From Enterococcus sp. PF1-24 (lineage in GTDB: Bacteria > Bacillota > Bacilli > Lactobacillales > Enterococcaceae): a DNA stretch of 64,000 nucleotides. Made by a program: the position numbers and the translations under genes. Position 1 is the stretch's first letter. Each line of letters begins with the position of its first letter. Positions 41,536 to 61,717 of this stretch are shown in pieces. The stretch spans positions 1 through 64,000 of the forward strand of contig NZ_JARXWL010000001.1 of the NCBI RefSeq assembly GCF_029893325.1. The letters are read 5' to 3'. Below the pieces are notes generated by a model. That model worked only from the letters and a program-made list of their open reading frames with translations, had not been told where the DNA came from and ran no database searches.

Positions 41536-43832
41536 TTCTTACGTCCTCTGGTTGTGGTTTTCTTCGTCATTCTGGTTGTCTGTTTCGTAGTCGATTGATT
41601 CTCCTTTACTTGATTTACTCTGGTTGATTCCTTTGGCGTTGTCGTCCAATTATCAGACGGACGGTTCTTAATCACTGGCGGTTTTGGTGGGTGTTTGTCA
41701 ACCTGCCCATTCTCACGGCTAATGGTTGGTGTACGACCAGTGCTTTCCGTTTTTGGCGTTGGTGGTGTCGCTGTCACAGGTCTAGTCGGTTTGCTTTCCG
41801 TGGTTGCTGGTTTTGTTCTAGTATCAGTGGTAGTTGGAACAGGCTTATTCCGATTCTCATAGTCACGCTTATACTGACGTTGACGCATAGAATACATAGG
41901 TTCAGTCTTATCTGTAGCCTGCTTTGCCTTATCCAGTTCAAGGCGTTTCTGTGCAAGATTGGCTCGTTTCTGGTTACGGTTTTCGGCTCGTTCTTCTTGT
42001 TTTTGCTTTCTGGTTTCCGTCACCGATTGGGTAAAGTCTGACGCATTTTGTACAAGGTCACGCTTGCCCTTATGAAGTGCATACTTCACGTTGGTAGGAG
42101 CGTTTTTCACTTGCTCGGTCATATCCTTGGCTTTGTCTACCACACGATTTTTGATGTCCATGACTTGACCTGTTTTCTCACCAGCTTTTTGTCCCATAGA
42201 GCGAGGGTCGCTTGTTGGCTTCGCCGGATTTCTTCTTGTAGTTGAACCACCGCCAGCGGTAGAATCGTTTGTTCGTTCAAGGTTGGCTTTCGTGGTTTTC
42301 GCTGTGGTATCTTTGGGCGACTTGCTACTTGGGGATTTCCCAATGGCGTGATTGACGCTTCGTTGTAGTTTCCTTGCTTGGCGGTTCATAAACATACGAG
42401 GTCTACGGAACATACGCCGACCGACGTTCTGGGAATCATTTCCTTGCAGGGCAAACATACTCATGATGTCACCTAACTTAAAGTAGATTCCAGCAAATGT
42501 GACTATCTGTAAAAACATAATCATAAAGAATGGTGAACTGGCAGAGATACTATAAAGCATGGTGGAAATACTAAATGCCACCGTGATAATCAGCGTAATA
42601 CCAGCTCGTGTCATAATCACATTGAATAACTTGGTGATGACTCGTTTGCTCATACCCTCAAAACTGGGAATCATACTTAGTAAAAAACTTATCGGTAGGA
42701 ACATGGTAAAGATGATAAAGAGTACCTGCGAAAATATCATGATTCCAGTCAGCAAGAATACAAATATTGAGATTCCGATATTGAAGATAAAGAGGAAGAA
42801 TACCGTACCAAGTCTAGAAATGGTATTCGTAATCGTGAGATTTTTGTTGTCCTTATCCTCGATTTCTTCAATGACAATATCTTCTCTATCTTCGCCGTTG
42901 TTGGTGTCTGGGCTGGTGGATAGTAAACTCTCCACACGATCAGCACCAAGAGCGTCAACGTCGGTTGAACCGAATTGTAAGAGTAGCCACGGTTGTTTTA
43001 CTTGTACCGAAAACAAGCTGTCACGAATCATATCGACACTATCTTTACCTTGGCTGTTGGTATCTGGTAAGACAATCTTAGTACCCACATCAAGGCTGGC
43101 ATTACTCACATCTTTGGAAAAGTCATTAATCTTTCCAATATAGTCTGGAGCATAGGCAATAAATGAAGCCGATACGATAAAGACAACCACAAAGTTTAAG
43201 ACTGCTCGGACTGCCTTGGTAGTTTCTCGCTTCAATAGTCCTGTGTACGCAACGTAGATTCCTAGAACCAGAATCAAGATAAGTAAGAATCCTACATAAA
43301 AGCCAGAACTTGAAAAGCCAGCTCGTGTCACACCAGCTATCGTTTGAATATTTTTACCGATAGAATCCGCCGTCTTACCTACGAAATCTAGGCTGTATGC
43401 TTCTTGTACCAAGTAGCCTGTGGCATTAGATAAGTACAATGAGATTGTCCAAATAAAATTGGTAATGGCATAAAGCCCATACATCACACTTTTGCCTAAA
43501 CCGTCCGACCAGTTCCACGGTAGCCAGCCCCAGCTATTATCAACGTAAAAATCTAGCTGGTAATTCGATAGCCCATACTTGGAATACTCATTAGCCGTAT
43601 TGATAGTATCGTCTACCAGACCAGTCGCATGAACTACCGTACCAACGCTGGCAAGCATAAAGATAACGGCAACTACTGCGACCATTGCTAAACTTGCGAA
43701 CCTCAAAATCTTCTTGGGTAAGGGCTGTTGCTTTCTTGCCTGTTTTTTCTCGGCTTTCTTTTGAGCTTTTTTTTGAGCTTTTTTCTGTCGCTTAATCAAT
43801 CGTTCCTTTCGTTTACTTTCTTTGACTGTCAT
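41532..43832 (-). CDS. orf15: Conjugation membrane protein Orf15 (VirB6-like)
   Basis: A 766-residue polytopic membrane protein that probably forms the channel. A basic lysine-rich N terminus (KRQKKAQKKAQKKAEKKQ), about eight membrane segments (about 45-470) and a long charged hydrophilic tail (about 480-766) rich in R, K, T and P form the usual architecture. Tn916 Orf15 is of similar size. Overlaps orf16 by one base and orf14 by four, so translation is coupled. Confidence 0.93.
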   Translation of the reverse strand: MTVKESKRKERLIKRQKKAQKKAQKKAEKKQARKQQPLPKKILRFASLAMVAVVAVIFMLASVGTVVHATGLVDDTINTANEYSKYGLSNYQLDFYVDNSWGWLPWNWSDGLGKSVMYGLYAITNFIWTISLYLSNATGYLVQEAYSLDFVGKTADSIGKNIQTIAGVTRAGFSSSGFYVGFLLILILVLGIYVAYTGLLKRETTKAVRAVLNFVVVFIVSASFIAYAPDYIGKINDFSKDVSNASLDVGTKIVLPDTNSQGKDSVDMIRDSLFSVQVKQPWLLLQFGSTDVDALGADRVESLLSTSPDTNNGEDREDIVIEEIEDKDNKNLTITNTISRLGTVFFLFIFNIGISIFVFLLTGIMIFSQVLFIIFTMFLPISFLLSMIPSFEGMSKRVITKLFNVIMTRAGITLIITVAFSISTMLYSISASSPFFMIMFLQIVTFAGIYFKLGDIMSMFALQGNDSQNVGRRMFRRPRMFMNRQARKLQRSVNHAIGKSPSSKSPKDTTAKTTKANLERTNDSTAGGGSTTRRNPAKPTSDPRSMGQKAGEKTGQVMDIKNRVVDKAKDMTEQVKNAPTNVKYALHKGKRDLVQNASDFTQSVTETRKQKQEERAENRNQKRANLAQKRLELDKAKQATDKTEPMYSMRQRQYKRDYENRNKPVPTTTDTRTKPATTESKPTRPVTATPPTPKTESTGRTPTISRENGQVDKHPPKPPVIKNRPSDNWTTTPKESTRVNQVKENQSTTKQTTRMTKKTTTRGRKK

Positions 43833-46282
43833 TATTCCACCTCATTTCTCACAGGAGGTCTGGTATCAAAGGCATGGAGCAGTTCTTCAAAGATTGGGTG
43901 GAACTGGATAACCCCTACACGACCATACAAATCGGAAATCAAACACTGTCCGTTTTCCAATTCTCGTAGCCGTTTTTGGTTGCTTTCATCTTCCTTATCC
44001 ACACCGAAGAACTCTAGCGTTTTCTTAATTTCCACTAAGTCCGTAGAACGGAACGCAAATTTCAGACCGATATTGTTTTTCATTTTCTCGTCCAGTAAAT
44101 CGTCCGCATTTTGGGTAACAAAATAGACCCCAGCGTTCATGGCTCGTCCAGCTCGGACTAGCTTCATGGAAAGGGTCTTTCCTTGGGCGACTTGCAAGAA
44201 GCTCCACGCTTCGTCAAGGTCTACGATTTTAAAGATGGAACGGTCAGAATGAATAAAGTCTAGGGCAAAGGTACTAATGACAATGAGCATTGCCACACTT
44301 AATAATTCCATTGTTGTGTATTCCTCAAACGAGGTGTCAGCATCTGGCAGTACCAAATCCGCTACTTGAATGATGTTCAGTTGTTTCTCTAAGCTGATGG
44401 ACTGTTTTACATTGCCGTCACTAAATAGCAGGTGTGCAAAATCATAATCCACAAAACTTTCGATATGGTCGGCAATGCTATTACTAATAGTGGTATCTTC
44501 CTTGCGAAGTTCATCAATGACTAATAGTAATCCACGTTGTTTACTCTGGGTGACGTTCCGAATGGCTTTTCTAAGCACAGGGAATTTGTCACTATCCCTT
44601 GATGAAATGCCAGTAAGGAATGTGAGAATATCAATCGCCAGACTTTCCGAATCTTTTTTGCGTTTCAGAATCACATATGGGTCAAGTAAGCCTTTGTTTT
44701 CCTCATCGCTGGTAAGGTTGACGATATTAATTTCATGGGCGATTTCTGGCAAGGTTTCTTTCCAGTTGCCACGTTCCGCTTTGGGGTCAACAATGACCGC
44801 TTGACCGCCAAATAGTACAGCATAATAGACCAGCGTATTGTTACTAAAGGATTTACCACCACCCAGCGAACCAAGAAACGCCGACGCTAACGCATTGGTG
44901 ACTGAACCTTTTACTCCTTGGCTGGCAAGGCTTGGTTTTAAATAAATGTTTCGACCAGTATCAAGGTTATAACCGACGTAAATCCCCTCGGTTTCTCCTA
45001 ACATCTGGGTCGCTCCAAAACCAAGTCCAGCCAAAAAATCAGAAGTCACATACTGGATATAGTCATTTAAGTATCGTTTGGACGCTGGGATAAATTCGCC
45101 GTGTAGTCCCAACATATCCCCAAAGGGACGCACGAGTTTAATAGATAAGTCGTCGTAGAAGTCTTTGACTTCATCACACCGTCTTTTCAACTCGTCGAGA
45201 TCCTTTGCGGATACTCGGATAACATAACTCAACTTATACATGGATTCTTTGCTTTGGTCTAAGCTACTTTCCAGCTCATTCACCGAATCCAAAGCGTCCA
45301 CCACATTAGAACTGGTTTCGTTCTCACTTTCCCAAGCATGGCTATCTAAGTCTTTCAGTTCTTTCTTTTTATTCCGAACGGTAGTCAGTGCCTTTTTATT
45401 AGCGACGATTTCCACATTCATGCTGGTGTCGATAGGAAAGGTGAATTGTTGTTGCTGATAGTAGAAGATTTCACTGCTTGGGAAATCCAGCTCACCCACA
45501 ATGGAGTTAATGGTGAAGTAAGCAACATAGGTTGTCGTATCCTCATGTTCCAATCGTAAGTACCGTTGATTTTCTTCAATCAAGCAACGAGTAGGTTTTA
45601 GAATATCGTATTTCTTTACCATCACTTCCTTATTGCGGTAGCGTTTTGGCAAATGATATTCATATTCCTCATAAGGTGTGCCAGTTTGACCGTAGAGGTG
45701 TTCAATGATATAGCCAAAGTCGTTTTTATCCAGCTTGCGGATTTTAAAGCGTCTGGAAATTTTACTTTCCAGCAAGTGTTCCATCTTAGAAAATCGGTCA
45801 ATTTCATCATTGCTCATAGATACAAAGTCGCCCATCAGTTTGTGATTGACACCGTGAATAAATTCTTCAAAGGCTTTCTTGATTTCTGCACCAATGCTTT
45901 TGATGGATACTTCTTGGTCGTTCAGTAATAACTTAAAGCCAATAAAAAAGCGATAGTCTACTTGATTGTCACCAATCATAGAAACTAACGCTTCTGTTTG
46001 TTCATCAATTTTTTTGTGAGCTACTTCTTTCAGCCGTCCAGTGACTTCCTGCTTTGAGCGTTCTTGCGTTGCTCGAATGCTGGATTCCGTCGCCAGTTGT
46101 AAGGCATGGATTTTTCCATCACGGTTTTGAGCGATAAGTTGACGGAAGTTATCATGCACTTGGTACTTTTCATCTGGACTTAAAAAGCTGTAATTGTAGG
46201 GTATCAACTCATAGTAGGCGAAGCACTCGCTGTCATGGTTGAACACCAGGTTATTTTCAATATATTTAATTGGGTACGCCAT
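43832..46282 (-). CDS. orf16: Conjugation ATPase Orf16 (VirB4-like)
   Basis: The motor ATPase of the mating channel. From ATG 46282 it has 816 residues (Tn916: 815). Walker A is GSLGGGKSFSNNT near 478, Walker B is KIVDLDEAWSFLQ, and DADDLLDEKMKNNI-type sensor sequence follows. The frame is open to the GTG at 46294, but that codon is too close to AAGGAG; the ATG is 11 bases from it. It overlaps the orf17 gene. Confidence 0.95.
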   Translation of the reverse strand: MAYPIKYIENNLVFNHDSECFAYYELIPYNYSFLSPDEKYQVHDNFRQLIAQNRDGKIHALQLATESSIRATQERSKQEVTGRLKEVAHKKIDEQTEALVSMIGDNQVDYRFFIGFKLLLNDQEVSIKSIGAEIKKAFEEFIHGVNHKLMGDFVSMSNDEIDRFSKMEHLLESKISRRFKIRKLDKNDFGYIIEHLYGQTGTPYEEYEYHLPKRYRNKEVMVKKYDILKPTRCLIEENQRYLRLEHEDTTTYVAYFTINSIVGELDFPSSEIFYYQQQQFTFPIDTSMNVEIVANKKALTTVRNKKKELKDLDSHAWESENETSSNVVDALDSVNELESSLDQSKESMYKLSYVIRVSAKDLDELKRRCDEVKDFYDDLSIKLVRPFGDMLGLHGEFIPASKRYLNDYIQYVTSDFLAGLGFGATQMLGETEGIYVGYNLDTGRNIYLKPSLASQGVKGSVTNALASAFLGSLGGGKSFSNNTLVYYAVLFGGQAVIVDPKAERGNWKETLPEIAHEINIVNLTSDEENKGLLDPYVILKRKKDSESLAIDILTFLTGISSRDSDKFPVLRKAIRNVTQSKQRGLLLVIDELRKEDTTISNSIADHIESFVDYDFAHLLFSDGNVKQSISLEKQLNIIQVADLVLPDADTSFEEYTTMELLSVAMLIVISTFALDFIHSDRSIFKIVDLDEAWSFLQVAQGKTLSMKLVRAGRAMNAGVYFVTQNADDLLDEKMKNNIGLKFAFRSTDLVEIKKTLEFFGVDKEDESNQKRLRELENGQCLISDLYGRVGVIQFHPIFEELLHAFDTRPPVRNEVE

Positions 46283-46661
46283 AATACATTTCACTCCTTA
46301 CTATGGTGATGGTTTCATATAACCGTTGATTGTGTAGTTTTACAGGTTTTCCTGCATAGGTGACCTTTGGTTTCACCATGTAGGTAATAATAGATTTCAG
46401 GAATCCATAGGGCTTTTTCCCATCAAAGGTTTTCTGGCTCATAAACCATGTCAGTCCAACAGGGATTCCCACGTATTTTAGTAATGCACCGTCAATCATG
46501 GATAACGGCGGTAAGTTTCCAAAGAGTATCACCAAGAATAACGACACCACAAACCATGTCATTTGGGTAAAGGTGACAGGGAATGGAAGTTGCAAATCAT
46601 TGATGGCATAAATGACCTTTTCCACCGACCAGATAGAGGTATAGCTTTTGATTTTTTTCAC
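46266..46661 (-). CDS. orf17: Conjugation protein Orf17 (TcpE-like)
   Basis: A 131-residue membrane protein with two hydrophobic segments (about 32-52 and 60-75). VEKVIYAINDLQLPFPVTFT at the start is typical of the TcpE family. It is the first gene of the orf17-orf13 run and overlaps orf16. The AAA ATPase gene has been inserted upstream, breaking the usual orf18-orf17 adjacency. Confidence 0.88.
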   Translation of the reverse strand: MKKIKSYTSIWSVEKVIYAINDLQLPFPVTFTQMTWFVVSLFLVILFGNLPPLSMIDGALLKYVGIPVGLTWFMSQKTFDGKKPYGFLKSIITYMVKPKVTYAGKPVKLHNQRLYETITIVRSEMYYGVPN

Positions 46662-46690: not shown

Positions 46691-46715
46691 AAAAAGGAGC
46701 CACAATTGCGACTCC
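46691..46715 (-). terminator. Terminator after the AAA ATPase gene
   Basis: Reading leftwards, GGAGTCGCAATTGTGGCTCC folds with wobble pairs and is followed by TTTTT, directly downstream of the ATPase stop. It would isolate the cargo gene from orf17. Confidence 0.7.
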
Positions 46716-46722
46716 CCGTCTA

Positions 46723-48906
46723 TTAATCTGAAATTTTCATCATCATTTTGTAATGTGGCTCATGACCTAGTTTTTTGAATATCAGCTTAAAAATTTCTTT
46801 GTAATTGTCAATATTCTCATAATCGAAAGTGATAACAAAATCATCACTAATAAAATGCGAGCCATCATTTATACATGAAACAAGGGATTTACATACCAAC
46901 TTGTCTTGTCCATCAAACTCATCAACACATTTCTCATAGTCAACATCTCCAATAATTTTGAAATAATATTCTAGTATTCTTCGCATAGTGTTAAAAGAGG
47001 TGACGGTAGATAAATTATCTTCTGATAATTCTTTCCATAATAATTGATATGTTGATTCTATAGGGTTATCTGGGCATTCAATAAAACTAGAAGTATTATC
47101 TGTTTTCCTTATAATACCAAATAGAACAGCATTTGGAGAGTAACTATCTCTACTGCCTAAAAAGGTTACTTCTTTATGGAAATATACATTGTGTGTAAGA
47201 ATAAACGTTTGTAAAATGCCATTTTGACCCTTACGACAATCATTTAGCAGATTCTTAACTAACGTACTAACAATAAATAAAACATTACTATCTAAACTAG
47301 AAATAGGGTCATCAATCACAATAACTTTTTCTGCTGTAATACCTGTCTTTTCTTGACTACCATACACTAAGTGGTAAAAATACAAGAAAGTTATAAAATT
47401 ATATTCACCCTCACTAAGAGTATTTTTAGCATTAGTACCATCATCTCTGACAATTTCATACGTTCCTTTAAGTTGTGGATTCTCCTTTAAGCTAAAACCT
47501 TTAAAATCAAATTTTTCTAGTAAGTTATTAATATCTGTAACGGTTGGAGCCACACTAGTCAAAGAATCTTCAATGGCTTCAATTTGTGATTTATTATCTC
47601 TAATTCCCTGCTTTAAAGTGCGGATTTGCCCGCTTATTGAAGTTTTTGCATTTTCTTTACCTCGTACAAAGGTTAGATAAGATTCTATATCTACTTTTAA
47701 TTCTGAAACAATGTATTCCCACAGTAGATTGATACATTTTTTCTTTTCTTGCTCTCGATTTCTTACAATCTCATTATTTGACTTAATAGCGTCATTGAAT
47801 AAGTTAATTATGTCATTGATTTCTACAAGTAAATCTTTAGCAGTATCTATTGATATTTTATTTGAGGGAGATTTTTTCTTCTTGCCTAATTCTTCAAGGT
47901 TTAACGCAATCAAGTTTTCCAAGAGTTGGTATTTCACTTCTAAATCAGACACATCAATAATTGATATGTCCGATTCAATAATTTCCTTTATTCTAACAAG
48001 TACCTGCGAATAATAATTACTATACTTTGTAATGAAGTCATTTAAAATTTGGCAATCTATTTCGTAGGCTTCATCAAAATAGTTTTCAATTTCTTGTTTC
48101 AACTCGTTGCTAATTTCTTGCTGACAGAAAGGACACTTTTTCTCGTCATTGTTCATATATCCTAAACCTTGGCGAACCCAATCACTGCTATTTAATAAGT
48201 CAATAAGTTGACCTATTGGTGAATCGGTGCTTCCAGTAATAACTTTTGTCAATAAATCCGATATCTCATAAGTTAAACTTCTTGCCACATCAATAGTTGA
48301 AAATAGTGAATGAATTGTACTGTTTTGGGAATAGGCAATATTGTATTTTGCTTTTAATTCCTCTAATTCAACAACAGTAATCTTATCCCATTTTTCATAG
48401 ACAGATAGACATTCAGCAGAAAATTTTTGCTTGCTATTCCGATATCCTACGAGTGCCTTGCTAAAACTCCCTCCAATTGCCTGTTGTATTGTCCAACTTT
48501 TTTCTGCAAGTTCATCCCTTTTCGTTTCAATATCACCATCAAAACCTTTAATAGTTTCAGTTTTAGTATCAATAAGTGTTTGCTTATCGCTATTTTCTTT
48601 TTGTAACGATTTCAATTGTTCTTGTTGTTCAATCGAATCTTGTCCTAATGTGAAAATTCCCTTTAGGTTTTCGGATTGCTTAAAATTGTCTTCGACAAAT
48701 TGTCTATTATAGACAAGTGTCCTCACATCATCATTATGACTAACTTTTACCTCACAAGTATCTGGAAGCGACTTAGAAGCTAGCAATTTTGAAATAGTGG
48801 TTTTTCCGCTACCGTTGCTACCGTAAAAAAAATTCAGTTTCCTAGGTGTTATTTCAACAGGATTTGTGTATGTAGCGATATCGTGAATCTTAATTTTTTC
48901 AATCAA
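46723..48906 (-). CDS. AAA ATPase with zinc-hook cysteines, PrrC/RloC-like (probable anticodon-nuclease-type defence protein)
   Basis: An ABC/SMC-type ATPase. Numbered from the in-frame GTG at 48939: Walker A YGSNGSGKTT (39-48), a coiled-coil insertion with CPFC (269-272) like a Rad50 zinc hook, signature LSEGE (508-512), Walker B VIDDPISSLD (541-550) and H-loop LTHN (581-584). The C-terminal 90 residues carry R653/R654-x-x-E657 (MRRILEYYF) and H695 in NDGSH, resembling the Arg-Glu-His triad of PrrC/RloC nucleases; this is inferred. The start is better placed at TTG 48906, eight bases after GAGGGGG, giving 727 residues. It sits between ardA and orf17, with its own likely promoter and terminator. 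A plain AAA_13 protein without nuclease activity remains possible. Confidence 0.75.
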   Translation of the reverse strand: MIEKIKIHDIATYTNPVEITPRKLNFFYGSNGSGKTTISKLLASKSLPDTCEVKVSHNDDVRTLVYNRQFVEDNFKQSENLKGIFTLGQDSIEQQEQLKSLQKENSDKQTLIDTKTETIKGFDGDIETKRDELAEKSWTIQQAIGGSFSKALVGYRNSKQKFSAECLSVYEKWDKITVVELEELKAKYNIAYSQNSTIHSLFSTIDVARSLTYEISDLLTKVITGSTDSPIGQLIDLLNSSDWVRQGLGYMNNDEKKCPFCQQEISNELKQEIENYFDEAYEIDCQILNDFITKYSNYYSQVLVRIKEIIESDISIIDVSDLEVKYQLLENLIALNLEELGKKKKSPSNKISIDTAKDLLVEINDIINLFNDAIKSNNEIVRNREQEKKKCINLLWEYIVSELKVDIESYLTFVRGKENAKTSISGQIRTLKQGIRDNKSQIEAIEDSLTSVAPTVTDINNLLEKFDFKGFSLKENPQLKGTYEIVRDDGTNAKNTLSEGEYNFITFLYFYHLVYGSQEKTGITAEKVIVIDDPISSLDSNVLFIVSTLVKNLLNDCRKGQNGILQTFILTHNVYFHKEVTFLGSRDSYSPNAVLFGIIRKTDNTSSFIECPDNPIESTYQLLWKELSEDNLSTVTSFNTMRRILEYYFKIIGDVDYEKCVDEFDGQDKLVCKSLVSCINDGSHFISDDFVITFDYENIDNYKEIFKLIFKKLGHEPHYKMMMKISD

Positions 48907-48941
48907 TTTTCTATCCCCCTCATCAAAGTTTATATTCACAT

Positions 48942-48975
48942 TATCCTACAAATTTCACTATCCTACAACATTATA
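48942..48975 (-). promoter_or_regulatory. Promoter and direct repeats upstream of the AAA ATPase gene
   Basis: Reading leftwards, TTGTAG, 17 bases and GATAAT form a plausible promoter. The decamer TTGTAGGATA occurs twice (48968-48959 and 48951-48942), 17 bases apart, so it may be a binding site or simply a duplicated segment. Confidence 0.5.
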
Positions 48976-48984
48976 TAACAAATA

Positions 48985-49485
48985 TTATCCCATATATTCA
49001 AACACACCATGAGAGGTCACAAGGTAGTTGCCCTCGATTTCCATATCACGACCAAGAGATTGATAGTCGATATAATTTTGTAGGTTGCTTGGTACTTCCC
49101 CAAGCTGTCCAGTTTCTTCCACATAATAACGTGCGACATCTTCCATAGAATCGCAATCGCTATAACATTGAATATCCTCTACGTGTTCCAGCAATTCTTC
49201 CAAAGAGCCAAACCACATACCTTGAATTTCTTTTAGTTCATCAAAGATAGGTGAACCATCTAATTCCATTACCAGCTCACACAGACGGTTGATTTCACTA
49301 ATGGACGTATATTCGCTGATTTCAAAGGGCAGTTCGTAATCGTGAATGGCGTATTCTTCATACTCACCATTTAAGCCGATACGTTCTTCCATTTCTTCGT
49401 AATCAATGGGAGGGGTGAACCATGCTCCTACCAGTTCACCCTCGTTGTACTTGCCAAGATTGGCAATATAAACTTGCATTTCCAT
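48985..49485 (-). CDS. ardA: Antirestriction protein ArdA
   Basis: A 166-residue acidic DNA mimic that blocks type I restriction enzymes; it equals Tn916 Orf18. The sequence is rich in D and E (WFTPPIDYEEMEERIGLNGE, YCSDCDSMEDVARYYVEETG-type region) and ends NYLVTSHGVFEYMG. It protects incoming element DNA in a new host. It lies just upstream of the PrrC/RloC-like gene, which is notable because PrrC is held inactive by a type I restriction enzyme. Confidence 0.95.
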   Translation of the reverse strand: MEMQVYIANLGKYNEGELVGAWFTPPIDYEEMEERIGLNGEYEEYAIHDYELPFEISEYTSISEINRLCELVMELDGSPIFDELKEIQGMWFGSLEELLEHVEDIQCYSDCDSMEDVARYYVEETGQLGEVPSNLQNYIDYQSLGRDMEIEGNYLVTSHGVFEYMG

Positions 49486-49903: not shown

Positions 49904-51085
49904 CTAGACAATCACCTCCTCTGCGGATAAGTTTTGCTGTTTAATTAGTTTTTCGTGTTTCTCGGTAAGTTTGGCTTCCTTTATCATTTCTGGCAGAACG
50001 CTCGTTTCATTTAATACATCAAGAATATTGGTTACTTTAAGCGTGGGTGCTACTTGATGGCGTAACCAGTTGAGCGTTCGCTCATAGCTGTATGGTTCTG
50101 GTTTGGTGGTTAAGCGTAATTCACCTCGATTCTTACCATTGAAGCATTCCCAGCGTTCGTTTGTTTTCCAGTCACTACGGCGTTTGTTATCCACTTTATC
50201 CACAAATCGGATATACCGATTGATAATACGAAATGCCGTTCGTTCCGCATTTTCATATTTCAATAAATCTTCGATAGCTTTCGTGGCTCGCTCATTTTTT
50301 AAGCGAATCTCAAAGCGGTTCTTCACTTCTGATTCATCAAGTGGGGTATTGTTCTTGACGTATTGCTCGTAGTCTTTTTCGTAGATACAGAAGTAGACCT
50401 CACTTTTCAATGAACCAATGTAGAGAGTGTTTCCCATGTCTGGCTTTTCGTCACGGTGGACTAACTCACCGCTACGATAGTTTTTAAAGCTACGAAAGAC
50501 AGAGATACATTCTTCTTGCTTACATTTCCTTGCCAGTTCTGGAATATCTAAGATTCCTACCTTGTCATTGATGGCAAGGTCTACTCGCTTGAATACGGCT
50601 TTGACATTTAAGCAATCTCGGAAGAAGTCATACCAGCTACGGTGCTGTGCCAGCAGGAAGTTTTCATACTGGCGACAACCTTTTCCTTTCAGTTCCAGCA
50701 ACACACCTTTGGTTAAGTCATGGGAACAAAGCACCATGACATCACCGAAGCGGTAATGCTCTGGATAGGAGTAGTAACCGAAATCTTCATGAATCATGTA
50801 GTCAATATTCAGCCGTAAAATATCATGAATGACAAAGGCGACATTATCTGTGGGAAACCGAATCCGTACATAGTCGAATAACATTTCTAAGGGGTTATCT
50901 GGATTGAATCGTTCTAATGATTCCAGTAAGTCTTCTTTAACTTGGGTAGTTGGAATTACTTTTCCTGTTTCAATATCCGATAGATACTGACGAGTGATTC
51001 CAGAAGCTATTGCCAGCTTGTTTTGCGATAGTCCATAAGTCAGCCGTTTATCCTTTAGTTCCTCAATCCAAGTGGGTTGTTTCAA
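49904..51085 (-). CDS. orf20: Relaxase Orf20 (Rep_trans family, with HTH)
   Basis: Nicks the origin of transfer and pilots the single strand; Tn916 Orf20 homologue. An N-terminal Xre-type helix-turn-helix (LSQNKLAIASGITRQYLSDI) precedes the rolling-circle replication-initiator-like domain (about 70-390), with RSWYDFFRDCLNVKAVFKRV, FEIRLKNERATKAIEDLL and TKPEPYSYERTLNWLRHQVA. The frame opens at 51118, inside a hairpin. TTG at 51085, seven bases after GGAGG, gives 393 residues and fits the family better. oriT should lie just upstream (51145-51269). Confidence 0.93.
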   Translation of the reverse strand: MKQPTWIEELKDKRLTYGLSQNKLAIASGITRQYLSDIETGKVIPTTQVKEDLLESLERFNPDNPLEMLFDYVRIRFPTDNVAFVIHDILRLNIDYMIHEDFGYYSYPEHYRFGDVMVLCSHDLTKGVLLELKGKGCRQYENFLLAQHRSWYDFFRDCLNVKAVFKRVDLAINDKVGILDIPELARKCKQEECISVFRSFKNYRSGELVHRDEKPDMGNTLYIGSLKSEVYFCIYEKDYEQYVKNNTPLDESEVKNRFEIRLKNERATKAIEDLLKYENAERTAFRIINRYIRFVDKVDNKRRSDWKTNERWECFNGKNRGELRLTTKPEPYSYERTLNWLRHQVAPTLKVTNILDVLNETSVLPEMIKEAKLTEKHEKLIKQQNLSAEEVIV

Positions 51086-51106
51086 TCGCATTCCTCCAAT
51101 CAAAAA

Positions 51107-51144
51107 GGCAGGTGTCAACTTTTAGGGTCTAGTTGACATCTGCC
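51107..51144 (-). terminator. Attenuator-like hairpin before orf20
   Basis: Reading leftwards, GGCAGATGTCAACT pairs with AGTTGACACCTGCC (one wobble), with TTTTT next, 20 bases before the TTG start. It would limit read-through from orf21 into the relaxase gene. Confidence 0.7.
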
Positions 51145-54111: not shown

Positions 54112-57100
54112 TTATTCCGCTTTTGCTTTTTTACGGCGGAAGTATAAGACACCGATTGCCGTAGCGGATACGGCTAAGCCAATCAAGGCGAAACCGATAT
54201 TGCTGGTATCGCCAGTCTTTGGTAATGAGCGGTCTGGTGTTGCTGGGTTTTCAATTTTCTTATTTGTCATTTCGCATTTCACAACCTTTCCATTTTCTTT
54301 GATTTCAAACTGCATAGGGGTTTCATCTAACTGGTAGCCTTTCGGAGCGTCGAACTCTTGGAAATAGTAGATTCCCTTTGGTAACTGCTCGAAAGTAAAG
54401 ATTCCTTTATCATTGGTACGACCCTCAACAATCACATTCTTTTCTTTGTCTATGATACGAACGCCTGTATCTGGTAAAAGTTCCCCAGTGGATACATCTT
54501 TTTTGGTTAATTCCGCTGTACCTTTGATAAGGTAGTTCTTGACCTCAAATAGAATCGTAGCTTCTGTTTCTTCTGATGAAGCAGGCTGTTCACCAAGTAA
54601 TTCATTTTCGGTATTAAAAGCCTTGATACCCTCTTTGGTCGATTCAATACGAAGCACATCTTTGGATGCCAAGTATTGGTCGGAAGAAGAAGCCATTTCT
54701 TTTAGATAGAATGTGCCCACTGAAATGTTTTTAAAGACACCTAAACCATCTTTTGTGATAGTGACTTCCTGTAGGACTTCGCCATCTTTGTTTTTTAATG
54801 CAAATACTGCACCAGTACCCAAAGCGTCATAAGCAAACTCCACGCCTGTTTCTTTATCAAAGTGAGCTGTTTCATTCACTTTCTTGATTGTAAATCCGTT
54901 GAAATGTAATTTATTTAAAATAGGATTACGTGTAATCTTTTGCATAGTTTCACGACCATAAGCCACCGTATCTTGATAGATATGGATAGGGAACGTCGCA
55001 TGGTTGTTTTCAGCGGTAAATTCAAAATCATATACGGTATCATCAGCCACATGGGAAGAACCAGCGTCAATCTCTTTTAAGTAGTATTTTCCTTGTGGTA
55101 ACTGCAAGTCAAAGGTTGCTTTTCCATCTTTGACAGCTTGATAAGCAATCAAAGCATTTTCTGGTACTTGGATAGTTTCGGATACGTTTCGAGTTTCACG
55201 AGCGAAGATACCAAAGACCTTGTTATTACCTTTGATAGCTTCAATCTCTGGCTGGTTATTGTTCCAGCTAGAAATAGATTCTTCATTTTTAAATAATTGA
55301 ATATCTAAGGATTGGAAGTCATTGGTTGCCGTAATAGAAGTAGAAGTCAGTTCTACTAATTGTCCAGCATATTTCAACTCAAATGAAATCGGTCTGTCAT
55401 CTAAGATAAAGCCGTTTGGAGCTGATACTTCAATCGCTTGGTATTTTCCAAGGTACAATTCTGGCGATTGCCATTCGCCGTTTTCATCAGTGGTAATGGT
55501 AGCGACTGTTTCGCCTTTTTTAACCCGAACCGTACCATCATTGGTTTTAATATCCTCAACCGCTTCAATACGGTAGGTAACCTCTGCGGTTGGTTTATAC
55601 TCATAGACAAACTCATACACTTTTCCATAATCGGATTCTTTCACCCTCACATCAATCGGTGTCTGTCCAGTCTTTTCAAGGGTCACGATTCCTTTTTGGG
55701 ATTTATCCTCAAAGTGAATTTCAATTAGACCACTATTTGAGCCGTCAACTTTGAATTTGGATGGTTCTTTGGCTAAAACATATCCTTCTGGTGCTTGGAC
55801 TTCGATTAGTTCGTAATCGCCATATGGTAATGCTTCTGGGGTAATTAAGTAACCCTCTTCATTGGTAAAGAATGTATCTGTTTCGCCATCTTCGTTGAAT
55901 TTTGGCATAGATACCAATTTCCCTGTTTGCATACTTTTAATCTGGAAGCCAGCGTCACTTCGTGGAATGGTTTTGCCAGTTTCAGCGTCTACCTTAACGA
56001 CTTTTAGCTTTTCTTCAATGACCTTATTTTCAATGGCATAGTGATGGGTTTCATTCTGCTCACGAATGGTTACCTTGAAAGCTTTAGCTGGCTCGTAACC
56101 CTCTGGGGTTTTAGTTTCCTTAACGGTGTAGCTGTCATAAGGCAAGTCCGTAAATTTCAAATAACCCTCTTTGTCGGTCAATCCTTTTTGAACCAGTTTT
56201 CCAGTGGTATCACTGAATACGGAAAATTCTACATTTTCCAGTGGCTTGATTTCTTTCTTATTTAATAGATAGCCTAGTTTTCCTTTCCAGTCGTAGTTCC
56301 CAAACTTCACAAGGTCAAAGCCACCAGTAATTACAGTTTCTTTCACAGTAGTGATATGAACCGCTGTTTCTACGGTTTGACCTGCGTATTTCAGTGTAAA
56401 TGGGTGTTCGTCTTTATCAATCAAATATCCCTCTGGAGCTTTTGTTTCAATCCAGTAGTAATCATCAAGGTAAAGACCTTGCACGGTCGCTTTGCCGTCT
56501 TTGATAGTGACTTCTTTCATCACTTTATCATCAGAAGTACGACGTAATTCATAGACTGCACCATCTAACTTCGCACCGCCTTGTGGTTTTGAGCCTGTTT
56601 TGGAATCCTCTTTGATTAAAGTAGCATTTCCTTTTTGTTCCTGTTCTTCTTGTGCAATCGTAGCAGACGTGATTTCCACGGTTTGACCTGCATACTTTAA
56701 TTCAAATGGAATCTTGTTTTTATTTAGCAGATAACCGCTTGGAGCTTTGGATTCCAAGGCATAGTATTTGCCTAATTTCAATGGGGAAGAAGTGGCGTTC
56801 CCATAGACATCAGTTGTCATAGAGGTTACTTTTGTGCCATCTTCTTTGTAAATATCATAAACTGCACCTTGTAAAGAGTAGTATTTGTTCAACATAGAAG
56901 AACCGAACTCTTTACCAGTCTTAGTTAATAGCACCTGTCCAAGCTGTTCTTTATTGTTCAAGGTCACGGACACTGTAGTGTTTGGTTTGATAACTACTTT
57001 CTTGATTTCGCCTTTGTTAAAATAGCCATTCGGAGCGGTAACTTCGGTTACAGTAACAGTCGTTCCCTCTGGAATATCATTGATAGTCGCAAAGCCGTTT

Positions 57101-57990
57101 GAATCCGTCACGATCTTCTTAGACGTGCCGTCGTATTCAAACTTCAATTTAGCATTTGGTAAAGGTTTGCCAGTTTCTTCATCAATCTTTGTGGCTTGAA
57201 TATTTCCAAGATGAATCACATCAACCTTGACCGTAGCTTGTTTGGAACTTTCTAAATGGAACTCAACCATAGACTGTTCATGTGGTTTCTTGTAAACAAT
57301 CGACGTACCGACTTCATTTTTGGGTACTTTACGGAATGTAATAATACCGTCATTGGAATTAGCATTTGGTATAATTTTCAGGCTATTTCCATTGTGGTTC
57401 GCTGTTGCATTGGTAGTGTTGGATTCCATTGGCATATCACTTAGGACACCATTAGAATCGATTAATGTGATACTATCGCCAACCGTTACAGATATCGACT
57501 GACCGTTAAATGAGGGTAAGGTATCATGTTTATTTACCAATGCCATAATTTCAGCTTTACGCTGATAATAATTTGGAATTGTGGACGAAACATACTGGTC
57601 GCCAAGTTCTTCCCATATCATGACTTGGGTTACGGCATAATCATAATGGTTCTGACCTGTAGCAGTATAACCGTAGTAGGCAATCTTGGATAATAAATCC
57701 TTTTTTGCATTTACGTAGGTTTCTGGAACAAATCCCTCGCCACTATTAGCAGGCACACCAGATTCAATACAGAATACTTTTTTGCCGTCCATTTTTAACA
57801 CGTATACATTATGGGTAATGGCATAACCAGTGTTAGGACTAACACCTGTATAATAATATTGCGTTGGTTCATCTAATTTCAATGAACTAGCATGCACAGG
57901 TAATACATTTGAGAATAATGTTCCGCATAAGGTCACTAAGACCATGATGAAACTTACTACTTTTGGTGGTATTTTTGATTTTGTTTTCAT
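54112..57990 (-). CDS. LPxTG surface adhesin with thioester domain and CnaB/SpaA repeats
   Basis: A sortase-anchored cell-wall protein of 1292 residues. A signal peptide (to VHA near 36) is followed by a thioester domain (about 40-200) whose cysteine (FCIESG, C76) and glutamine (AVTQVMIWE, Q124) form the predicted internal thioester for covalent attachment to surfaces. About ten CnaB/SpaA immunoglobulin-like repeats follow, each with E/K pairs for isopeptide bonds; KYAGQTVE recurs at least three times. The anchor is LPKTG (1258-1262), a hydrophobic stretch and RRKKAKAE. Heading a conjugative element, it probably aids cell-cell contact in mating or host binding (inference). The start is chosen by AAAGGA seven bases upstream of ATG 57990. 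Confidence 0.93.
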   Translation of the reverse strand: MKTKSKIPPKVVSFIMVLVTLCGTLFSNVLPVHASSLKLDEPTQYYYTGVSPNTGYAITHNVYVLKMDGKKVFCIESGVPANSGEGFVPETYVNAKKDLLSKIAYYGYTATGQNHYDYAVTQVMIWEELGDQYVSSTIPNYYQRKAEIMALVNKHDTLPSFNGQSISVTVGDSITLIDSNGVLSDMPMESNTTNATANHNGNSLKIIPNANSNDGIITFRKVPKNEVGTSIVYKKPHEQSMVEFHLESSKQATVKVDVIHLGNIQATKIDEETGKPLPNAKLKFEYDGTSKKIVTDSNGFATINDIPEGTTVTVTEVTAPNGYFNKGEIKKVVIKPNTTVSVTLNNKEQLGQVLLTKTGKEFGSSMLNKYYSLQGAVYDIYKEDGTKVTSMTTDVYGNATSSPLKLGKYYALESKAPSGYLLNKNKIPFELKYAGQTVEITSATIAQEEQEQKGNATLIKEDSKTGSKPQGGAKLDGAVYELRRTSDDKVMKEVTIKDGKATVQGLYLDDYYWIETKAPEGYLIDKDEHPFTLKYAGQTVETAVHITTVKETVITGGFDLVKFGNYDWKGKLGYLLNKKEIKPLENVEFSVFSDTTGKLVQKGLTDKEGYLKFTDLPYDSYTVKETKTPEGYEPAKAFKVTIREQNETHHYAIENKVIEEKLKVVKVDAETGKTIPRSDAGFQIKSMQTGKLVSMPKFNEDGETDTFFTNEEGYLITPEALPYGDYELIEVQAPEGYVLAKEPSKFKVDGSNSGLIEIHFEDKSQKGIVTLEKTGQTPIDVRVKESDYGKVYEFVYEYKPTAEVTYRIEAVEDIKTNDGTVRVKKGETVATITTDENGEWQSPELYLGKYQAIEVSAPNGFILDDRPISFELKYAGQLVELTSTSITATNDFQSLDIQLFKNEESISSWNNNQPEIEAIKGNNKVFGIFARETRNVSETIQVPENALIAYQAVKDGKATFDLQLPQGKYYLKEIDAGSSHVADDTVYDFEFTAENNHATFPIHIYQDTVAYGRETMQKITRNPILNKLHFNGFTIKKVNETAHFDKETGVEFAYDALGTGAVFALKNKDGEVLQEVTITKDGLGVFKNISVGTFYLKEMASSSDQYLASKDVLRIESTKEGIKAFNTENELLGEQPASSEETEATILFEVKNYLIKGTAELTKKDVSTGELLPDTGVRIIDKEKNVIVEGRTNDKGIFTFEQLPKGIYYFQEFDAPKGYQLDETPMQFEIKENGKVVKCEMTNKKIENPATPDRSLPKTGDTSNIGFALIGLAVSATAIGVLYFRRKKAKAE

Positions 57991-58032
57991 ACTCATTTCC
58001 TTTCATTGTTTTTCTCTTTTAATTTTGGGTAC

Positions 58033-58496: not shown

Positions 58497-58892
58497 TTAT
58501 AATAAGTTTTCGCTAGAAAGCAGCATCAATCTGCCTAGAGCTAAAATAAACCACTCACGGTTCTTTGGCTCCAAGATTTCTGCCCCTGTATATGCCCAAT
58601 GATTGAAATATCGCCACCTTGAATAAATCGCTGACCCCAGTAAGTTAATATCAACCACAGAATCAATAATTTTTGTAAGCTCTCTATCATCGTACACTGC
58701 ACTGCCATACTTTGTTTCAAAGGCCTTTCCACAATCCATTTCAAAACAGAGAGCATCGCAATCATCAGCCATAAAGCGATCGACCAATTCTATGTAATTG
58801 ATGTCTTGGTCACGAAACTTATCGCTCCATTTGACAGCAAAGTTATGTATCTGCGTCATATCTGCCACTGTGGTACACCTCCATTCACTCAA
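58497..58892 (-). CDS. Unknown protein, third gene of the GmrSD-type operon
   Basis: A 131-residue acidic, mostly helical protein (MSEWRCTTVADMTQIHNFAV, VDRFMADDCDALCFEMDCGK, WRYFNHWAYTGAEILEPKNR). It has no signal peptide or membrane segment, and four cysteines without a metal motif. Its start overlaps the stop of the DUF262 gene by four bases, so it is translated with it and likely works with it (partner, immunity or accessory protein). No family recognised. Confidence 0.75.
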   Translation of the reverse strand: MSEWRCTTVADMTQIHNFAVKWSDKFRDQDINYIELVDRFMADDCDALCFEMDCGKAFETKYGSAVYDDRELTKIIDSVVDINLLGSAIYSRWRYFNHWAYTGAEILEPKNREWFILALGRLMLLSSENLL

Positions 58893-61717
58893 TTTCTCTT
58901 TGCTAAGTCAATCCTTTTTGATGTCAAATCTACCGATATAACCTCATATCCCGCTGCAACAATTGCATTTGCCATAGTATGTGTTTTCGATGGTTTCCAG
59001 TAAACAGGGTAAGTATATGCTGATCTGCACAGTTCGTTTCCGATAATATTTTCGACTTCTGCAAAGGTCAATGCAATCTCGCTTTTACCACATGACTCCA
59101 AATACTTTTTTATTGCTGAAAACTTCTCACCGAATGGCTCTTCATTATCTAACTCATCGGCAGATACAAGTGCTTCCACCAATGAATCAAATTTTTCAAG
59201 CATCCATGCGAATAATTCATCTTGTTTTTCAGGATTAAAAATATCGGCTTCACGCTTGAACATAATTCTCTTTGCATTACTCTTTTCTCTGCTTGAATAC
59301 CAGTCTAGCTTATCGCCAAAAACATCTTCTATCTTTTGCTTTTTACTTTCCAGTCTTGAAAAAACATCAGAATTCTCAGCATAAATTAAAATAGCTAAAA
59401 ACTTACTACGCGTAATAGTAAATTCGATATGCAAATCAGCAGTTCCTACAGACACTGCATACCAACCATCGAACGATGGTTTTCTAAGTGCTACCGTGTC
59501 TCCATAGCCTTCCTGACTGCAATAATCAACAAAGTTTGTCCAGAATTTTATTCTTTGATTTTCAAGTTCCGTACCACCAGCAATGTGTTCTACTGCTTTA
59601 GGAGATTTTTTATTGACAGCATCAGTTTCTTCTGGTTCTTCTTTCTCAATTTCATGCGGAATCTCTCTCCCGTCCACTGCAAATGAAACATACACCAACT
59701 TTTCAAGCTGATCTTTATTAAAACTGAATTCCCATCTGTTTTCCATAAATTGCAACAACATCTTGCTACGCTTATGTATTCTTTCCGCTGTCCAGTCTGT
59801 TTCTTTTGAAACTTCAATTTCGGAATGGGAACCGTTTTGATATCCTCTTCTTCCCGTAGATTTAGAAGTTTTCTTATCTTCAAAGCTATCATTCTGCAAA
59901 GCTGAGTTAATGCTTTGCGATAACGGCAATAAGTTTCCTAGTGCGCATGATAGCAACTCGATTTCCTCATCATCAAACTGTCTGAACTGATTTCTCCAAT
60001 AATACTTAGTTGGTGTCTGCGGAAGAATATGTTCAATAGATACTTTGTCTTTTTCTGTTTTTGTAAACATCTCCCAGCTAACCTTGTCTATATTATATTT
60101 CTTTGCCAAATGTGATTCATATTCGTATAAAAAGTACTTGATAGAGTTCCAATAATAGAACCCTCCCATATTATCAAAATGCTTTTCAATTTTTGTAACA
60201 AAACTCGGTAGGGCATATTCGATATTGGCATTGGTAGTTTCATTGATATCATCTATTAAATCATCAATATCCATCTGTTGTAAATAAATGCTACGTGCAG
60301 CACGGTAGTATTCACTGCTTCTAAATGTTGCATTATAATAACCAACCCTAAAGCAGATAAACAAAAATCTCTCTACTGCTTTAAATACTTCTACACGTTT
60401 TTCTGCAGGCAAATCTCTGCGACTGATGATTACCATAACAAGCGGTCTGAAGTGACCAATACCAATACGATTCAAACGGTCAACCCAGATTTTTTCATCG
60501 GCCATCAAATTATTACTCTGCATAGGGAAGAAAGTGTCATACCAGTATTTAGCCATATTCTTAAGACTATTTACGTAGTCTGCGATTTCAGTAGGTACTA
60601 ATTTTGAAACTTCTATGGTTTCCGTTTCTGTATTATCTACATCATCTTCCTCTTCGTAATCTGTGTTTATAACATACCCCTTTGGCAATTCGCTCATAAG
60701 AACAGTTTTCTTTTCAAATATGTTCTTAGCAGAAAACTTATTCAGCAGGAAACGAATATAGTCATCGCCCTTCCTTCTGGAATAAGTAAAATATATTGTC
60801 CAATGTGCTCTTAAAAAATCGTCATCAGAAAGAGGAACATTTTCATTTCTGCCAAGTTGAAAGTATATTTCCTTCCACGCATCATTGATTTGTTTTCTCA
60901 GGTGGGACTTCTCCATCTCATCGAATTTTTCGTCTGAATACAGTGTAGTAAGATATATAAGCCTGTTTTTCAGCAACTCCAGATTCGTCAGTTTCTTGCC
61001 ACGATTATTCATGGTTTCAAAAGCCACAAAAACATCATAATCATCGTCTATCTCATGTATATTGAACATCAATCTCAATGTGAGTTTCAAATAGAGATTA
61101 TTGATTCCTTCAATCCTATCGTTTTCATAGAGAGCCGTTAAGTTCTCCCTAAAGAAACTCTTTGCAAATTTGAGATTTTTTGTGTAATAGGTTTCATTGA
61201 CCGTACCGGAATACGGCTCACCAAAGATCTTATACCTTAAGTAATCCGCACTCGGATTGTCCACCTCATAACCAAACAAGTATGTTGTAATCTGGTTCAT
61301 TGGTGGTCTGCTTTGATAGATATATTTAGCCACTACATCTTTCAAGGTGTCATATCCAAGTACGATTTCATCGTCTTTCTTTCCTTTATTTTCATCCAGC
61401 TCTCTCACAAAACAAATTATTTCATTCAGTAAAATTACGAAAGTAGTCAAACGTTGCTGACCATCTACAATGTGACAAGCCTTAAATCCTTTACCTACCA
61501 TCCAGAGGTCAGAACCCCAATCCTTTGTCTCTTTTCGTTCAAGTGATTTTAAAGACAAAAGTCCTGTATAATGATATCTATCCTGTTGTAAGTTAATCAG
61601 GTCATCCCAAAAATCCGCAAGTTGGGACTGCTGCCAAGCATAGCCCCTCTGATAGTCCGGAATTCTAAAAAGTCTGTTTTGAAAAAGTAAAGAAAGCGAT
61701 TGTAATTCATTTGCCAT
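58889..61717 (-). CDS. GmrSD-type restriction protein (DUF262 + HNH/DUF1524 + DUF4268)
   Basis: A 942-residue single-chain relative of type IV restriction enzyme GmrSD. The DUF262 domain (about 10-260) has PDYQRGYAWQQ (20-30), HIVDGQQRLTTF (82-93) and FETMNNRGKKLTNLELLK (233-250), with DGQQR as the nucleotide-binding motif. The DUF1524 His-Me nuclease has IEHILPQ (561-567) and GNLLPLS (594-600). The C-terminal domain (about 730-870) is DUF4268-like (RIKFWTNFVDYCSQEG, HIEFTITRSKFLAILI). Likely degrades modified phage DNA (inference). First base is shared with the HTH gene stop (TAATG) and the end overlaps the 131-residue gene. Confidence 0.9.
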   Translation of the reverse strand: MANELQSLSLLFQNRLFRIPDYQRGYAWQQSQLADFWDDLINLQQDRYHYTGLLSLKSLERKETKDWGSDLWMVGKGFKACHIVDGQQRLTTFVILLNEIICFVRELDENKGKKDDEIVLGYDTLKDVVAKYIYQSRPPMNQITTYLFGYEVDNPSADYLRYKIFGEPYSGTVNETYYTKNLKFAKSFFRENLTALYENDRIEGINNLYLKLTLRLMFNIHEIDDDYDVFVAFETMNNRGKKLTNLELLKNRLIYLTTLYSDEKFDEMEKSHLRKQINDAWKEIYFQLGRNENVPLSDDDFLRAHWTIYFTYSRRKGDDYIRFLLNKFSAKNIFEKKTVLMSELPKGYVINTDYEEEDDVDNTETETIEVSKLVPTEIADYVNSLKNMAKYWYDTFFPMQSNNLMADEKIWVDRLNRIGIGHFRPLVMVIISRRDLPAEKRVEVFKAVERFLFICFRVGYYNATFRSSEYYRAARSIYLQQMDIDDLIDDINETTNANIEYALPSFVTKIEKHFDNMGGFYYWNSIKYFLYEYESHLAKKYNIDKVSWEMFTKTEKDKVSIEHILPQTPTKYYWRNQFRQFDDEEIELLSCALGNLLPLSQSINSALQNDSFEDKKTSKSTGRRGYQNGSHSEIEVSKETDWTAERIHKRSKMLLQFMENRWEFSFNKDQLEKLVYVSFAVDGREIPHEIEKEEPEETDAVNKKSPKAVEHIAGGTELENQRIKFWTNFVDYCSQEGYGDTVALRKPSFDGWYAVSVGTADLHIEFTITRSKFLAILIYAENSDVFSRLESKKQKIEDVFGDKLDWYSSREKSNAKRIMFKREADIFNPEKQDELFAWMLEKFDSLVEALVSADELDNEEPFGEKFSAIKKYLESCGKSEIALTFAEVENIIGNELCRSAYTYPVYWKPSKTHTMANAIVAAGYEVISVDLTSKRIDLAKRN

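Follow-up and report, generated by a model that had tools for sequence, protein, structure and literature searches.

Tn916, the textbook example of a conjugative transposon, is known for its resistance cargo and, in its proper form, carries a tyrosine integrase. Passages of a review of Tn916 describe insertions of DNA that carries resistance genes, and a single insertion within orf15, and do not mention orf17 or orf18 (PMC4202715), and in classical Tn916 ardA and orf17 are separated by only 88 bp, according to the relevant part of PMC9632896. The ATPases of the RloC type were defined, in the descriptive passages of PMC2610378, by the motif R-X3-E-X36-52-H, often with a Ser preceding the His, by a length of 658-897 amino acids (aa) and by a CX2C hook within a coiled-coil insert that splits the ATPase; some of the genes start with GUG or UUG, and the PrrC proteins given in the same source have sizes of about 341-416 aa. 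Here, we describe an RloC-type gene that lies between ardA and orf17 of a Tn916-type integrative and conjugative element (ICE) in Enterococcus sp. PF1-24 (contig NZ_JARXWL010000001.1, positions 1 to 64,000 of the forward strand; this stretch of 64,000 nucleotides (nt) is called the window). Its sequence is best explained by a gene of the known RloC kind, which lies here in an ICE slot beside ardA. A description of an ardA-orf17 cargo slot, or of RloC in a Tn916-type ICE, was not found in the literature searched, outside which lie bioRxiv and most subscription journals. A first-pass annotation of the window had known of no description of this arrangement, which holds for the slot within that literature but not for the link between RloC and anti-restriction, which was already proposed in 2008 and 2013.

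Identification of the RloC-type gene

The gene and its two diagnostic motifs, whose DNA coordinates were derived from residue numbers, are:

46723 to 48906, minus strand: RloC-type ABC ATPase and putative anticodon nuclease, 727 aa (open reading frame, Pfam, PADLOC, motif conservation and PrrC profile match)
48124 to 48135, minus strand: CPFC zinc-hook motif, C258-C261 (conserved in 79 and 81 of 81 rows, respectively)
46855 to 46983, minus strand: codons of the R-x3-E-x37-H triad, R642 to H684, with Ser683 preceding His684 (conservation, PrrC alignment and published motif)

A single long open reading frame (ORF) encodes 727 aa from a TTG at 48906, with the stop codon ending at 46723. An alternative GTG start at 48939 gives a form of 738 aa, on which the Pfam and PADLOC scans were run, but the TTG is the more likely start since it is preceded by the ribosome site GAGGGGG. 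The first-pass annotation had placed this ORF exactly between ardA and orf17, and there it lies, on the minus strand, which had not been stated. The Pfam family AAA_13 matched nearly the full protein (E 3.2e-167), and PADLOC assigned it to the candidate defence group PDC-S06 (E 2.8e-257), with a further match of its PrrC model to residues 469-731 of the 738 aa form (E 1.7e-14). The full-length structure model (predicted local distance difference test score (pLDDT) 82, predicted template modelling score 0.45) has a Rad50/SMC-type head, with helices at residues 90-448 that stand between the two ATPase halves and include the CX2C motif. Rad50 was at the top of the structure list and matched the head best (Z 16.2, root mean square deviation 7.8 over 351 residues; Z 16.1, deviation 5.0 over 290 residues), and the rows returned by Foldseek and VIA-align for the full model were filled by Rad50, SMC and ABC heads, with little on the C terminus. 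The single protein, used as a query against PDB sequences, gave no match at E 0.01; the search with the alignment returned Syn-F4-Link as the sole chain (E 0.002), which was set aside since it covers coiled-coil residues only.

Conservation was counted in 81 sequences, the window protein and the best 80 of 274 relatives; all 80 fetched loci entered the count, and 58 of them are in the 59-row alignment A1. The hook cysteines C258 and C261 were found in 79 and 81 sequences, and the triad residues R642, E646 and H684 in 80, 79 and 80. The only row lacking all three triad residues is a truncated ORF (L041), and one locus (L024) has Asp at the position of E646. Because the motifs are conserved among relatives, they do not stand there by chance. 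Thus, the CPFC hook and the R-x3-E...H pattern read by the first-pass annotation are both present, and the loss of R, E and H in homologues, one of the two refuting outcomes that it had named, did not occur in the 81 closest sequences. The spacing of 37 residues between E646 and H684 and the preceding S683 agree with the published RloC triad, as do the length, the hook within the insert and the Rad50-like head with the published architecture.

For comparison with PrrC, the three top matches of the PADLOC PrrC model were used, whose flanking genes are hsd-like by eye. An hhalign comparison of the RloC family with these proteins gave a probability of 90.9 (E 1.1e-6) and a register in which R642, E646 and H684 fall on PrrC R325, E329 and H365. 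The window protein is nevertheless not of the PrrC size, carries the CPFC insert and is encoded between ardA and tcpE and not within a type I hsd locus. In sum, motif and architecture support an RloC-like protein and not PrrC, so that of the earlier label, PrrC/RloC-like, the second half is retained.

The ardA-orf17 interval is a cargo slot

The genes used as borders and anchors of the slot survey are:

48985 to 49485, minus strand: ardA (orf18), anti-restriction gene and slot border (Pfam ArdA, 1.7e-45)
46266 to 46661, minus strand: tcpE (orf17), the other slot border (Pfam TcpE, 9.9e-37)
43832 to 46294, minus strand: orf16, AAA_10/TraG-like ATPase, second survey anchor (Pfam)
49904 to 51118, minus strand: orf20, rolling-circle initiator (Rep_trans), anchor of the control interval (Pfam)

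Places encoding ArdA (E <= 1e-40; 45 + 55 = 100) were each paired with orf16. For nine of them no orf16 was present within 8 kb, and without these places 91 pairs remained; one orf16 search scored at most two candidates per genome, so some partners may be missed. The 91 intervals fall into 50 empty (395-495 nt) and 41 filled ones (739-4729 nt), with none between. The slot is filled in 33 of 44 elements of Enterococcaceae and in 8 of 47 elsewhere in the order, and several empty intervals have the 88 nt gap between ardA and orf17 of classical Tn916. These counts are not independent events, since, outside the family, many of the 39 empty intervals equal classical Tn916 in length and appear to be copies of a single element.

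ORFs were read in each of the 41 filled intervals and the occupants were grouped by us, partly by eye, into 25 types, of each of which one representative, and not every ORF, was scanned with PADLOC; matches better than 1e-20 that were so judged are called specific. Specific matches to known or candidate defence models were obtained for 12 types, which account for 17 intervals:

RloC of the window, one interval (PADLOC)
IetAS (PADLOC, multi-gene)
Lamassu, two types (PADLOC, multi-gene)
Hachiman, three intervals (PADLOC, multi-gene)
PDC-M49 A and B (PADLOC candidate model)
Gabija (PADLOC, multi-gene)
CBASS type II with cyclase, E1-E2, JAB and 2TM effector (PADLOC, multi-gene)
A second CBASS cyclase adjoining a TIR protein (PADLOC)
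Dodola, with a partial DolA match (PADLOC)
PDC-S39 (PADLOC candidate model)
An inverted pair of AbiJ (partial) and PDC-S32 (PADLOC)

Six of these types, CBASS, Gabija, the two Lamassu types, Hachiman and IetAS, match established multi-gene systems, and their partner genes are present. Weaker signs of defence are an nSTAND3 protein and an SMC/Ppl-like protein. The representatives of eleven types had no PADLOC match at E 0.001, some of them with DUF6037 or DUF4365. A family of 339-350 aa proteins, which begin like MVIIDVYGKI, occupies seven slots (L123, L126, L127, L131, L161, L177 and L178); its 339 aa member matched neither Pfam nor PADLOC, and the family is a candidate for a still unrecognised defence gene. 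None of the occupants to which Pfam or PADLOC was applied was recognised as a resistance or metabolic gene. Cargo is also seen on the other side of ardA, as in the orf20-ardA intervals of an Oceanobacillus element with Abi_C and DUF5677 genes (L003:4687-5466 and L003:12598-13623).

The exchanged segment and its limits

Comparison with two close ICE relatives (ArdA identity 96 and 94%, Orf16 98%) revealed the limits of the inserted DNA, next to which a hairpin was found:

46697 to 48994, minus strand: exchanged segment (the alignment to the two relatives stops at 46696 and restarts at 48995)
46694 to 46717, minus strand: intrinsic terminator with a 10-bp stem (-14.3 kcal/mol)

Both junctions are sharp; 46696 lies inside the terminator and 48995 inside the last codons of ardA. 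A hairpin followed by a T run also precedes tcpE in all four empty slots that were tested and in 23 of 29 representatives of filled slots, which are partly interrelated and one of which (L175) is outside the 41 filled intervals; no strong hairpin was found there in the other six (L133, L138, L152, L159, L173 and L175). Since the hairpin stands in the four empty slots too, the terminator looks like a part of the ICE backbone. A consensus promoter scan of the window gave 13 sites compared with 14.3 expected in shuffles, and no such site on the minus strand precedes the start. A perfect TATAAT, with no scored -35 element, is located 9 nt past the ardA stop, and a TATAAT within 80 nt of that stop was present in 12 of the 29 representatives, a number which only one of 2000 single-base shuffles reached (mean 4.8). 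This hints that slot cassettes bring promoters starting right after ardA. The first-pass annotation had credited the gene with its own promoter and terminator: the terminator is real but backbone-like, and the scan for a promoter was not above chance. Its observation is therefore confirmed for the ORF, the ATPase and the motifs and unconfirmed for a promoter and terminator of the gene's own.

RloC relatives in other genomes and elements

In a search of 298 class-level genomes at E 1e-60, only the genome of the window and one 36% relative were found. Among 105 genomes of Enterococcaceae, eight had an RloC match at E 0.001, and that of the window is the only one in the ardA slot. The tree places the window protein in a group with those of E. 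raffinosus and Oceanobacillus (100/99). The E. raffinosus relative (66%) has an interrupted frame and is located in 19.5 kb of DNA that does not match the Tn916 genes of the window, about 17 kb before an ICE ardA whose own slot holds a 57% relative of the DUF6037 protein. In the two Oceanobacillus ICEs, the order is an orf19-like ORF (by eye), an Abi_C gene, an ardA copy disabled by three in-frame stops, RloC (64-71%), an ORF of 73 aa, orf23-22-21-20 and another ardA, about 5.6 kb beyond; the RloC gene of L003 is intact. In O. sojae, RloC (L006:4509-5870) is split by an opposite-strand ORF of 453 aa that is transposase-like by eye. Furthermore, an IMG/VR viral contig (L212, IMGVR_UViG_2920403509_000001) carries Tn916-type ICE genes with a 36% RloC relative directly before orf23; a cytosine-methyltransferase-like ORF (by eye) lies upstream. 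The contexts in Oceanobacillus and L212 make RloC a recurrent cargo of such ICEs, at differing positions. S. thermophilus ST55 holds a PDC-S06 gene, as reported in a part of PMC11514479.

The flanks of the 80 relatives (at most 6 kb on each side, and less where a contig ended) were searched with one ArdA and three Hsd query proteins. ArdA matches were found in two, both Oceanobacillus ICEs, and Hsd matches in 15. From IMG/VR, 49 relatives (L211-L259) of 80 loci were taken and the 31 weaker ones left out; none of the 49 had an ArdA match in flanks of up to 3 kb a side.

The host genome and the ICE

The host genome comprises 2.89 Mb in 74 contigs. The limits of the ICE were taken from its copies:

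34815 to 58287, no strand assigned: ICE, inferred extent (ends common to the copies in genomes G041 and G066)
34756 to 36579, minus strand: large serine recombinase at the left ICE end (Pfam Resolvase/Recombinase), whose last codons overrun the inferred end at 34815

The module order is that of Tn916, orf23-22-21-20-19-ardA-orf17-16-15-14-13, with two DUF961 proteins, FtsK, Rep_trans, ArdA, TcpE, AAA_10 and NlpC/P60; orf19 had no Pfam match in the module scan, and we take orf15 and orf13 to be such by their position. Unlike Tn916 proper, the element has the large serine recombinase and not a tyrosine integrase at its end. The DNA of the conjugation genes was 74.5% identical to that of Enterococcus plasmids over 29% of the query. 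A plasmid-borne element was considered and rejected, as plasmid records held only these 74.5%-identical conjugation genes and, in 13 records, RloC relatives of less than 60% identity.

On another contig (C8), the host encodes an HsdR ORF (1052 aa, TIGR00348 above cut-off) and an HsdM-like ORF (547 aa), with a 399 aa ORF between them, and the HsdS query had no match in this locus. The HsdR, HsdM and HsdS queries were named by eye, and the HsdR query and TIGR00348 match the same gene.

Inside the ICE, 54112-57996 encodes an LPXTG surface protein of 1294 aa with nine SpaA-type domains and a thioester domain. Two genes lie just beyond the inferred end: 58889-61717 is a restriction gene of the GmrSD type, and 62073-63653 encodes another large serine recombinase. 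In G066:C4, near 68,745 and 94,520 (L208, L209), there is a close copy of the ICE, with about 90-94% DNA identity where blocks align; it is integrated within a CRISPR-like repeat array, with the same repeat at both ends.

Proposed function and alternative explanations

We consider it likely that the gene is suicide defence cargo of the RloC type, carried by a Tn916-type ICE in an exchangeable slot, with tRNA cleavage, trigger and phage defence as the predicted parts of this reading. By analogy, the protein probably shuts down the phage-infected cell by cutting tRNAs. The Rad50-like ATPase head and the zinc-hooked coiled coil would sense broken or phage-processed DNA, as published work on other RloC proteins suggests, an ATP-driven change would free the C-terminal nuclease, and R642, E646 and H684 would cut tRNA anticodon loops, by which translation would stop and replication of the phage or a rival element would abort. 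The ardA-orf17 interval would serve such ICEs as the site at which varied cassettes, many of them for defence, are taken up between the ardA stop and tcpE. ArdA would be a neighbour by location, shielding the ICE from type I restriction on arrival, and the cargo would shield the host cell. Most likely, ardA indicates the slot and does not work together with RloC, since related elements carry many different defence systems there.

Several results weigh against this reading. The C-terminal 138 residues alone matched the PrrC profile weakly (probability 1.5, E 0.035), and a PADLOC scan of this piece returned PDC-S06 models only and no PrrC match. The C-terminal model (pLDDT 78, with the loop bearing H684 below 50) had no PDB match at E 0.001 in Foldseek, and its HEPN rows, HEPN toxins among them, reached only Z 2.3-3.0 and ranked below unrelated rows; neither PrrC nor RloC nor any strong HEPN chain was among the structure rows shown, which is not evidence of a differing fold. 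The HEPN motif Rx4-6H is printed in PMC3710099, which in the relevant passage assigns RloC and PrrC to HEPN nevertheless; residues 677-684 read S-C-I-N-D-G-S-H, with no Arg 5-7 residues before His684. Because of this motif result and the lack of a confident PDB match, the protein was filed as RloC-like by motif and architecture, and its class follows the published description and not an alignment with the RloC of Geobacillus or Acinetobacter. Among the 49 more distant IMG/VR relatives, R was kept in 49 and E in 47 (Asp in two), but His in only 35; the other 14 read, for example, NDSSA or NNPNG at the His motif, so a sub-group has lost the His. These RloC-like proteins may represent a different, non-cutting or re-purposed system. 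The loci concerned are L215, L217-L219, L244, L245, L249-L253, L255, L256 and L259, and in nine of the 14 the fetched flanks contain an HsdM-like gene. As to the slot, four of the 12 matched types rest on candidate (PDC) models, and the matches to AbiJ and DolA span their models incompletely. PADLOC can also mislabel, as the WYL regulator of the ICE scores 2.1e-39; for this reason the multi-gene systems are the strong cases.

It is rather unlikely that the slot is a general soft spot without a defence bias, in which RloC arrived by chance, an explanation that would be compatible with the RloC part of the preferred reading. Because 13 of the 25 occupant types lack a specific PADLOC match, the slot may take any cargo, and the control interval between orf20 and ardA, longer than 520 nt in 16 of 45 Enterococcaceae elements, is variable too, so both sides of ardA take cargo, with the ardA-orf17 side filled more often. 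Against a mere soft spot speak the 12 types with matches to defence models, six of them established multi-gene systems, a share that was counted in this slot and not against other intervals, and the lack of recognised resistance or metabolic genes among the scanned occupants. Distinctly unlikely is an RloC-like ATPase whose C terminus acts on another RNA, or which is a DNA-damage-triggered toxin that stabilises the ICE by addiction and does not defend against phages. The conservation of the triad shows an active site and not its target, no PDB fold clearly matched the C terminus, and Abi systems of ICEs can double as maintenance systems, as stated in a part of PMC7563491; yet the triad is in register with the tRNA-cutting PrrC, many other slot occupants match anti-phage systems, and the slot contains no second same-strand ORF of at least 50 aa that could encode an antitoxin.

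The first-pass annotation had proposed that ArdA and RloC could act as a switch against rival elements or phage, or that ArdA could restrain the nuclease in some other way. In such a functional switch, a type I enzyme such as the host HsdRMS would restrain RloC or be watched by it, and ArdA, or a rival anti-restriction protein, would release the nuclease by disabling that enzyme, or ArdA, a DNA mimic, would bind and restrain RloC itself. The two genes are indeed directly adjacent on the same strand, the closest Oceanobacillus relatives directly follow an ardA copy too, and PrrC provides a precedent. Furthermore, a passage by Davidov and Kaufmann (2008) links two RloC orthologues to the anti-restriction factor ArdC (PMC2610378), and the activation of RloC by anti-restriction factors is discussed in a section of PMC3874168. 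However, RloC is only one of 41 occupants beside ardA, 78 of the 80 relatives have no ArdA match in the fetched flanks, L212 has none within the fetched 3 kb on either side of its RloC, and the ardA adjoining the intact Oceanobacillus RloC is dead, with the second copy standing apart. In A. baylyi, activation of RloC by DNA breaks did not need an R-M (restriction-modification) protein, according to a part of PMC3874168. A purpose-built switch is thus very unlikely, and of the earlier interpretation the RloC-like nature is kept and the specific pair given up. An inherited ardA-RloC module, to which the Oceanobacillus order might point, is disfavoured by that dead ardA and by the E. raffinosus relative, which lies far from its ICE ardA and outside its slot. 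Coupling in trans is possible, because the host carries HsdR and HsdM-like ORFs on another contig, but nothing in the data asks for it. An unlikely further reading is a dedicated cassette port at which the incoming ICE disarms and rearms its recipient: ArdA would disable type I restriction, an exchangeable defence against phages and rival elements would be installed from the adjoining slot and, in the case of RloC, ArdA-inhibited enzymes or anti-restriction proteins of rivals could free the nuclease.

Comparison with known systems

The slot, empty in classical Tn916, is filled in three quarters of the Enterococcaceae elements, often with anti-phage matches, which suggests that such ICEs would spread immunity as well as resistance. 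The eleven occupant types without a PADLOC match make it a simple place to seek new defence genes, and the locus itself is a clean system for asking whether RloC and ArdA interact.

The known systems closest to the window protein are the RloC proteins of Geobacillus kaustophilus and Acinetobacter baylyi and the PDC-S06 group, with which it has in common the size, the ABC ATPase split by CX2C, the R-X3-E-Xn-H triad with its Ser and the non-ATG start of some RloC genes; an occasional linkage to anti-restriction, there ArdC, is likewise reported in a part of the RloC literature. It differs from them by its place in the ardA-orf17 slot of a Tn916-type ICE. A further mark of RloC is Zn-responsive cleavage of tRNA anticodons in which the wobble nucleotide is excised. 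With PrrC, an anticodon nuclease that a type Ic R-M enzyme keeps masked, the window protein shares the ABC motifs and the register of R, E and H, but it is nearly double in length, has the zinc-hook insert and lacks adjoining hsd genes, whereas the three PrrC genes used here lie between hsd-like genes. As putative anti-phage cargo of an ICE it resembles SpbK of ICEBs1, which is expressed in the integrated state of that ICE (in a passage of PMC8880864); SpbK, however, has a TIR domain and belongs to a different ICE. Defence hot spots in genomic islands, such as those of Pseudomonas (PMC12629846), are, judged by the title of that report, alike in combining defence and anti-defence on mobile islands, whereas here a single slot within the conjugation region of a Tn916-type element, bordered by ardA and tcpE, receives the cargo.

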